From NCBI RefSeq assembly GCF_025028335.1, contig NZ_JAFEUW010000001.1, positions 1,054,001 to 1,118,000 of the forward strand: 64,000 nt of DNA. Direction: 5' to 3'. Below, in pieces: positions 42,715 through 44,040 of this stretch (its first letter is position 1; every line of letters starts with the position of its first letter). Position numbers and translations under genes: made by a program. Under the pieces are notes generated by a model. That model was not told the DNA's origin and ran no database searches. It saw nothing but the letters and a program-made list of their open reading frames with translations. This DNA comes from Brachybacterium sillae (lineage in GTDB: Bacteria; Actinomycetota; Actinomycetes; Actinomycetales; Dermabacteraceae).

Positions 42715-43431
42715 TCACATGACGCGCGGCCCGAACACCGCGGATCCCGGCCGCACCACCGTCGCGCCCTCCTCGATCGCCATCTCCAGATCCCCGCTCA
42801 TCCCCATCGACAGCTCGGTGAGACCGGGCCGGGCGACCTCGTCGCGCAGTCGGCGCAGCAGCGCGAGGGAGGCGCGCACCGCCTCCGGGTCCTCAGTGTG
42901 AGCGCCGATGGTCATCAGACCCACCGGGTGGAGGCGCCCCGTCGCCGCCATCGCCTCGGCGGCGCGCGCCACCGCCTCGGCGGTCGGGGCGTATCCCCCC
43001 TTGGAGTCCTCTCCCGAGGTGTTCACCTGCACCATCACGCGCAGCTCCCGATCGGCCAGCTCCGCGCGCCGGGCCAGGGCCTCCACCAGGTCATCGCGAT
43101 CGACGCTCTCGACCACATCGGCGAAGGCCACGGCGTCCTTGGCCTTGTTGGTCTGCAGGCGGCCGATGAAGTGGCGCTCCACCGGGTCCGGGCCCTGCCG
43201 GAACGTTAGGAGCAGCGGGTCATCATGCTTGGCGGTCTCCTGGGCGCGGTTCTCCCCCACCGCGACCCGCCGACCGGCCTCCCGCAGCGCCGTGAGTGCG
43301 GCCGCGATCTCCTCCGGGGAGCGGGTCTTGGTGGCCAGCAGGATCAGCACGTCCTCCGGGCGTCGGCCCGCCCTCTCACAGGCCCGATCCACGCGCTCCA
43401 ACAGGGCGTCCACACGGTCGACGATGTCCAT
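42715..43431 (-). CDS. PLP homeostasis protein, YggS/PROSC family
   Basis: Small PLP-binding protein of 238 residues that buffers the cofactor in the cytosol. Visible blocks: LATKTRSPEEI with the cofactor Lys, GENRAQE, HFIGRLQTNKAK, VQVNTSGEDSKGG, GLMTIG, and LSMGMSGDLEMAIEEGATVVRPGSAVFG at the end. A leaderless start is likely (TACGCT 6 nt before ATG). In many actinobacteria this gene sits near divIVA/sepF; here it stands alone between the PLP-enzyme operon and a tRNA gene. Confidence 0.93.
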   Translation of the reverse strand: MDIVDRVDALLERVDRACERAGRRPEDVLILLATKTRSPEEIAAALTALREAGRRVAVGENRAQETAKHDDPLLLTFRQGPDPVERHFIGRLQTNKAKDAVAFADVVESVDRDDLVEALARRAELADRELRVMVQVNTSGEDSKGGYAPTAEAVARAAEAMAATGRLHPVGLMTIGAHTEDPEAVRASLALLRRLRDEVARPGLTELSMGMSGDLEMAIEEGATVVRPGSAVFGPRVM

Positions 43432-43462: not shown

Positions 43463-43537
43463 CGCCCCCACCGGGACTCGAACCCGGACCGGAACCGCTT
43501 TTAAGGCGGCCGCCTCTGCCGATTGGGCCATGGGGGC
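43463..43537 (-). tRNA. tRNA with anticodon UAA (nominal tRNA-Leu), short variable arm
   Basis: Folds as a complete tRNA of 75 nt without encoded CCA. The 7-bp acceptor stem pairs GCCCCCA with TGGGGGC. The D arm has a 3-bp GCC/GGC stem with a loop of the Leu/Ser style. The anticodon stem GCCGC/GCGGT (one G-U) closes a 7-nt loop CTTAAAA, so the anticodon is UAA (UUA, leucine). The T arm is CCGGG-TTCGAGT-CCCGG. Only 6 nt lie between anticodon and T stems, whereas bacterial leucine tRNAs have a long variable arm, and the discriminator base is G, not A. Gene identity by anticodon is clear; charging identity is uncertain. Confidence 0.85.
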
Positions 43538-43604
43538 AGGCGGGCCGCGGGGCCCGCGCCGGAAGCCTAGCGGGCGGTCGGGTCGCATCCCGTGACGGTG
43601 TTGT

Positions 43605-43692: not shown

Positions 43693-44040
43693 ATGACCTA
43701 CTCGACCCCCGCTCCCGGCGCCCCGACCCCCGGCACCCCGACCCCCGGTGCCCCGTCGACCGCCCCCGGTGCCGTCGGCATCGATCGGGACAAGCTGCGC
43801 AACCAGGGCATTCTGTGGACCATCCTGGGTGCTCTCCTCGGCGGTTTGCTCAGCATCCCGGCGCTGATCCTGGGCATCCTCGGCATCGCCAAGGTCGACA
43901 CCGACCCCGCCGGGGCCCAGAAGCTGATCAAGTGGACGAAGCTGGTGACCATCATCGGCCTCGTCCTGTCGCTGCTGTTCGTCGTCGGCTACATCATCTT
44001 GATGGTCGTCCTCGTGGGCAGCGCGGGCACCACCTACTGA
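43693..44040 (+). CDS. Small DUF4190-like membrane protein with Pro-Gly-Thr N-terminus
   Basis: A 115-residue protein. The first 27 residues are a repeat of Pro, Gly, Ala and Thr (units such as PTPG), coded by a near-tandem GC-rich DNA repeat. Two membrane helices follow (WTILGALLGGLLSIPALILGILGIAK and VTIIGLVLSLLFVVGYIILMVVLV) around a short polar turn with VDTDPAGAQ. This layout matches DUF4190-type actinobacterial proteins, whose function is unknown. GGAG precedes the ATG, and a strong hairpin follows at 44076-44113, so it is probably a single-gene transcript. Confidence 0.75.
   Translation: MTYSTPAPGAPTPGTPTPGAPSTAPGAVGIDRDKLRNQGILWTILGALLGGLLSIPALILGILGIAKVDTDPAGAQKLIKWTKLVTIIGLVLSLLFVVGYIILMVVLVGSAGTTY

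Follow-up and report, generated by a model that had tools for sequence, protein, structure and literature searches.

A short-armed tRNA-Leu(UAA) carrying G73 in Brachybacterium sillae, a probably functional member of a conserved actinobacterial family

The only tRNA with a UAA anticodon found in the genome of Brachybacterium sillae is a short-armed (class I) molecule, which is probably a working leucine tRNA charged by LeuRS, possibly weakened in that its discriminator base, G73, would lower charging. Comparison of sequences indicates that the short arm is a conserved trait of the UAA tRNA in the genus and in many actinobacterial families, rather than decay or an oddity of one species. The gene lies in a 64,000-nt stretch of the genome, referred to here as the window, whose relevant features are the following:

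43463..43537, minus strand: class I tRNA-Leu(UAA) with a short variable region; 75 nt, CCA not counted (Rfam, ARAGORN, family model)
43501..43503, minus strand: anticodon UAA, in the loop CUUAAAA (ARAGORN and arm-by-arm reading)
43488..43493, minus strand: variable region TCCGGT, 6 nt (arm-by-arm reading)
43515..43525, minus strand: D-arm bases 13-22 with A14, A15, G18G19 and A20a, leucine determinants of E. coli according to passages of PMC9976931
43463..43463, minus strand: discriminator base G73 (sequence reading against the family)
43564..43569, minus strand: TAGGCT hexamer upstream of the tRNA, −10-like by eye only
42715..43431, minus strand: downstream neighbour, a Pfam Ala_racemase_N protein (Pfam)

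Rfam model RF00005 matched positions 43463-43537 over its full length (53.6 bits, E 1e-8 in 64 kb) and ARAGORN called a tRNA-Leu(taa) there, while neither detected any other tRNA in the 64-kb window. The first-pass annotation, which had placed a UAA-anticodon tRNA with a 6-nt variable region and G73 on this interval, was thereby confirmed to the exact coordinates, on the minus strand, and arm-by-arm reading bore out both peculiarities; the covariance model that it had proposed returned the tRNA at these boundaries, and a normal class II leucine fold did not appear. The acceptor stem has 7 bp (GCCCCCA/TGGGGGC), the D stem 3 bp (GCC/GGC) around the loop CAATCGGCAGA, the anticodon stem 5 bp (GCCGC/GCGGT, with an outer G.U pair) around CTTAAAA at the DNA level, and the T stem reads CCGGG/CCCGG. 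After G73 the DNA continues with CCG, so that CCA is not encoded. Every stem pairs, and the broken stems or missing loop invariants expected of a pseudogene were not seen. The cloverleaf energy was −32.9 kcal/mol, and two other sequences of the genus gave −35.0 and −35.6; in all three the predicted best fold differed from the full cloverleaf.

With respect to known tRNA classes, the 7-bp acceptor and 5-bp T stems differ from the 8/4 or 9/3 acceptor branch of allo-tRNAs, and G73 is shared with tRNA-Ser, whose long variable arm is missing. A15-U48, G18G19, A20a and A14, which passages of PMC9976931 give as the rule for bacterial leucine tRNAs, are all present, while the long variable arm and A73 of class II tRNA-Leu are replaced by 6 nt and G73. 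The D arm, described earlier as Leu/Ser-like, appears leucine-like from its bases, and this part of the description stands. The features of the class I family, namely C13-A14-A15, GGYAGA and a variable region of 5-6 nt ending at U48, were likewise found, with A73 as the one missing element. A family model made from 48 class I sequences, the window tRNA among them, was searched against 12 genomes and scored the window tRNA at 83.1 bits, clearly over the 67.3 bits of the best row outside the family.

The B. sillae genome (2,668,991 bases in 2 contigs, 99.99% complete) gave 49 tRNA matches, which were read individually. A second, canonical tRNA-Leu(UAA), for which a search had been suggested, was not found among them, and the four other leucine tRNAs (CAA, CAG, GAG and UAG) are all long-armed with A73. 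In the genus, 35 of 38 Brachybacterium genomes had one match each to a generic UAA-tRNA pattern; all 35 were short-armed, and this exact pattern gave no long-armed match in them. Complete reading of 32 of the 34 other matching members yielded, with the window copy, 33 full sequences; the window copy is 93% identical to its nearest relative. For the three genomes lacking a match, the idea that they have lost the tRNA, as a sign of decay, was considered and rejected. In two of these (G025 and G353) the contigs end inside the neighbouring gene exactly at the expected tRNA site, so that the absence looks like an assembly gap; the third (G005) is 84% complete and also lacks a match to that neighbour.

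The short arm is not restricted to the genus. In a sample of the phylum the generic pattern matched 193 of 296 genomes, the reversed pattern used as a control matching once in the 296 (G123). The 150 matches listed comprised 48 class I, 100 class II and 2 that were not tRNA-like (67 nt), as counted by eye with the tally then checked; among these listed matches no genome had UAA tRNAs of both classes, the two forms having both been searched for in part of the genomes only. Named class I carriers include Mycobacterium, Mycolicibacterium, Nocardia, Gordonia, Rhodococcus, Corynebacterium, Arthrobacter, Kocuria, Agrococcus, Demequina, Schaalia and Brachybacterium. Judging from these distributions, the class I tRNA-Leu(UAA) appears to stand in place of the usual long-armed form in many Actinomycetota.

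From 209 extracted places, which include the same gene taken twice, 125 distinct class I sequences were obtained. U48 was present in 124 of them and A73 in 123, and the variable region was 5 nt long in 120 sequences, with 6 nt in the remaining five. The stems vary by compensated pairs, and U33, A35-A36 and A37 are kept in the anticodon loop. It should be noted that the invariance of A14, A15, G18G19 and A20a is partly built in, because the extraction script demanded those bases. On re-reading without this demand, A14-A15 was found in 33 of 33 places of a first set (11 of which came from a pattern fixing the D arm) and in 31 of 32 of a second; the exceptions were one A14-G15 and one differing D loop, both in CAA tRNAs of family f21. 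The script gave no match for 24 loci, of which 16 were other B. sillae tRNAs and one (L260) a tRNA-Arg; L096 and L246, also without a script match, were read separately as class I with A73, and L093, L151, L188, L193 and L212 were left outside the extracted set.

Two further UAA sequences were observed. One genome (G245, L097) has a long-armed tRNA-Leu(UAA) with an acceptor and a D arm resembling those of the class I family, possibly a trace or intermediate of arm loss. Another (G129, L093, G129:C1:2666664-2666694) has a second UAA-like match with no ARAGORN tRNA call, possibly a remnant.

Short-armed tRNA-Leu(CAA) genes were also read in 17 genomes (G065, G167, G210, G038, G043, G048, G053, G054, G056, G350, G349, G356, G357, G358, G363, G079 and G247), and a long-armed CAA tRNA is retained in Brachybacterium and Arthrobacter sp. 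9AX. The last two of the 17 belong to family f21 (L396 and L397), which is probably Streptomyces and whose UAA tRNA resembles bldA, the class II tRNA-Leu(UAA) of Streptomyces; one of their short-armed CAA tRNAs has G15, not A15. Among the leucine tRNAs of Mycolicibacter (G349), those with UAA and CAA have the short arm and those with GAG, UAG and CAG the long one, which agrees with the long variable loops given for tRNALeu-2, 3 and 5 of M. tuberculosis in passages of PMC11541572. In addition, phages of Mycobacterium, Streptomyces, Corynebacterium, Vibrio and Pseudomonas (L403-L407) carry short-armed tRNA-Leu with UAA, CAA or UAG anticodons, and the Vibrio and Pseudomonas copies place such tRNAs outside Actinomycetota as well.

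In view of this conservation, the earlier suggestion that the short variable region marked a decayed or reassigned tRNA does not hold; the assignment to leucine and UUA survives, as does the point about G73, with weak charging left open. The window copy departs from its class I relatives by G73, by G9 and U43, and by a variable region that is one base longer. Of the 33 fully read sequences of the genus, 31 have A73, none but this copy shows G9 or a 6-nt variable region, and the G27.U43 pair recurs in just one other (G020). G73 occurs only in B. sillae and a second Brachybacterium (G032) among the 125 distinct class I sequences, and is a real departure of the lineage that leaves room for weak charging. 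A genome of the same order (G053; L261, G053:C20:27514-27595) has a long-armed tRNA-Leu(UAA) with G73 and an encoded CCA.

According to the passages of PMC9976931 concerned with recognition, E. coli LeuRS reads A73, A15-U48, G18G19 and A20a and neither the anticodon nor the long arm; tRNALeu variants without the anticodon arm and the long arm stay active, and A73 and A14 serve for the recognition of human mitochondrial tRNALeu(UUR), which has no long arm. The same passages describe A73 as crucial for leucylation in E. coli and name two antideterminants, G73 of tRNASer acting against LeuRS and C2-G71 against SerRS. A single LeuRS locus exceeded the family cut-off in each of 26 genomes, B. sillae included; since the class I family keeps, with few exceptions, the elements that LeuRS reads, the short-armed design fits the known rules of recognition. 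The LeuRS ORFs, taken from stop to stop (L267-L292), fall into a shorter group of 808-936 aa and a longer one of 963-1089 aa, and class I tRNA-Leu(UAA) occurs with both. Co-evolution of LeuRS with G73 was considered and rejected, as no change common to the G73 genomes was found among the 26 aligned LeuRS, including none shared by the two G73 Brachybacterium. As regards a possible common origin of G73, these two are not grouped in a 12-row LeuRS tree, most inner forks of which are weak; B. sillae breaks one invariant LeuRS column (N to H, residue 834 of the ORF), and G032 and G053 break none.

We propose that the window tRNA, the sole tRNA for UUA in the genome, is a short-armed leucine tRNA charged by the single bacterial LeuRS through its core (A14, A15-U48, G18G19 and A20a), a mode of charging that would require neither the anticodon nor the long arm. 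G73 would most likely lower charging and leave identity unchanged. SerRS would not be expected to accept this tRNA, even though G73 occurs in its own substrates, because it relies on the long arm. We infer from the above that the tRNA is expressed and is charged by LeuRS at a reduced rate. By analogy with the need for A73 and the antideterminant role of G73 in the passages of PMC9976931, this copy may be charged very poorly; low charging would be bearable because UUA is almost absent from genes.

In this regard, TTA accounts for 4 of 109,655 codons in the called genes of B. sillae and for none in those of the window, and for 4 of 97,148 in G021, whose tRNA has A73; these counts come from script-made gene calls covering 71-73% of the sampled DNA, so some genes were missed. 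As UUA is equally rare in G021, a low use of this codon allows for G73 but is no predictor of it. In conserved ORFs of class I genomes (80 of 119 named loci), with shadow frames removed, TTA aligned with Leu in 27 of 38 cases, followed by Ile and Val with three each; the control codons gave 85 of 102 for CTA, 486 of 564 for TTG and 50 of 79 for ATA to Ile. The unfiltered tally for TTA was Leu in 93 of 134, then V (10), S (10) and F (7). Two of the four TTA codons of B. sillae precede the true start codons in our reading, one aligns with Leu in three displayed PDB homologues that are close to one another, and the fourth is near the 3′ end of its gene. A lipase-like gene of B. sillae (contig C1, 17035-17841, minus strand) carries a UUA as its codon 57. 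The one TTA codon of G021 with homologues among the loci aligned with P and H, at only about 30% identity.

The rarity of UUA also bears on the view that the gene is decaying, that is, that the G73 tRNA is hardly charged and UUA is nearly unassigned, read slowly or by near-cognate tRNAs. Such decay would suit the presence of G73 in just two of 125 sequences and the handful of UUA codons, half of them read as lying before true starts, but all stems pair, the family score reaches 83 bits, UUA does not become rarer with G73, and the missing tRNA of G025 and G353 is a matter of contig ends at the neighbour and not of a shown loss; we regard it as unlikely. A related and rather improbable state is that the main leucine determinant is gone from the only tRNA that reads UUA, with UUA near to becoming unassigned and the tRNA kept by the few remaining UUA codons.

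The position of the gene raises a non-decoding role, for example as a leader of the downstream gene, which is presumably of the YggS kind. The tRNA ends 31 bases upstream of this yggS-like gene, both lying on one strand. In 21 of 29 other loci within the genus, a relative of that gene is near the tRNA, although not always adjoining; the compensated stem changes and the kept U33, A35-A36 and A37 point instead to decoding, which makes such a role very improbable. On the other side of the tRNA, a small ORF (43693-44040, plus strand) starts with a run of proline-rich PTPGAP-like repeats. It is very improbable that G73 is a sequencing or assembly error, even with a single base in the one assembly of the species examined, given that another genome of the genus (G032) has it too, that a class II UAA tRNA with G73 occurs in a genome of the same order, and that the same gene shows further differences from the genus. 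Several non-leucine tRNAs use G73 as discriminator base, which is what would speak for charging by a different synthetase and reassignment of UUA. Nothing pointing to such a synthetase, which the first-pass annotation had allowed for, was found, and reassignment is not supported and extremely improbable, considering that the leucine core is retained, that UUA aligns with Leu in class I genomes and at one B. sillae position, that the long arm needed by SerRS is absent and that C2-G71, anti-SerRS in the passages of PMC9976931, is present.

A probably functional leucine tRNA of this kind can be compared with several known systems. Class II tRNA-Leu(UAA), such as bldA (PMC4932002), shares the anticodon, the D-loop pattern, A15-U48 and the 3-bp D stem, and is normally also present in one copy per genome, but has a long variable arm and A73 where the window tRNA has 6 nt and G73. 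The class I UAA tRNAs of the genus and of other Actinomycetota share the entire architecture of the window tRNA. Animal mitochondrial tRNA-Leu(UUR) likewise reads UUR without a long arm, its LeuRS using A73 and A14 (passages of PMC9976931), but it keeps A73, and the likeness need not reflect common descent. The tRNA-Leu(UAA) of Mycobacterium phage Kykar, Streptomyces phage Genie2 and Vibrio phage phiKT1024 has the short-armed design but is phage-borne and has A73. The tRNA-Leu(TAG) of a mycobacterial cluster (PMC6582537) is also a leucine tRNA with a short variable loop, but its anticodon is UAG and it is an extra copy beside a normal one.

Excerpts of earlier work give the general rule and hints of exceptions: bacterial tRNA genes lack structural diversity and are uniform (review PMC4033280), cytosolic leucine tRNAs have a long variable arm (review PMC9976931), a global tRNA tree marks some Tyr, Leu and Ser tRNAs with short arms (PMC2474678), tRNAscan-SE 2.0 treats conflicts of anticodon and isotype (PMC8450103), and non-canonical tRNAs are treated in PMC7609411. 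Searches of the open-access literature, as far as its available text goes, brought up no account of class I tRNA-Leu(UAA) as a family in Actinomycetota. Many members of one phylum, among them Mycobacterium, Nocardia, Corynebacterium and Arthrobacter, depart from the long-arm rule in their UUA tRNA, and some also in that for UUG, and their LeuRS appears to be of the ordinary bacterial kind; this lends natural support to the view that LeuRS does not need the long arm. The G73 copies, in turn, offer a natural test of the need of LeuRS for A73 and of how a nearly unused codon might lose its own tRNA.
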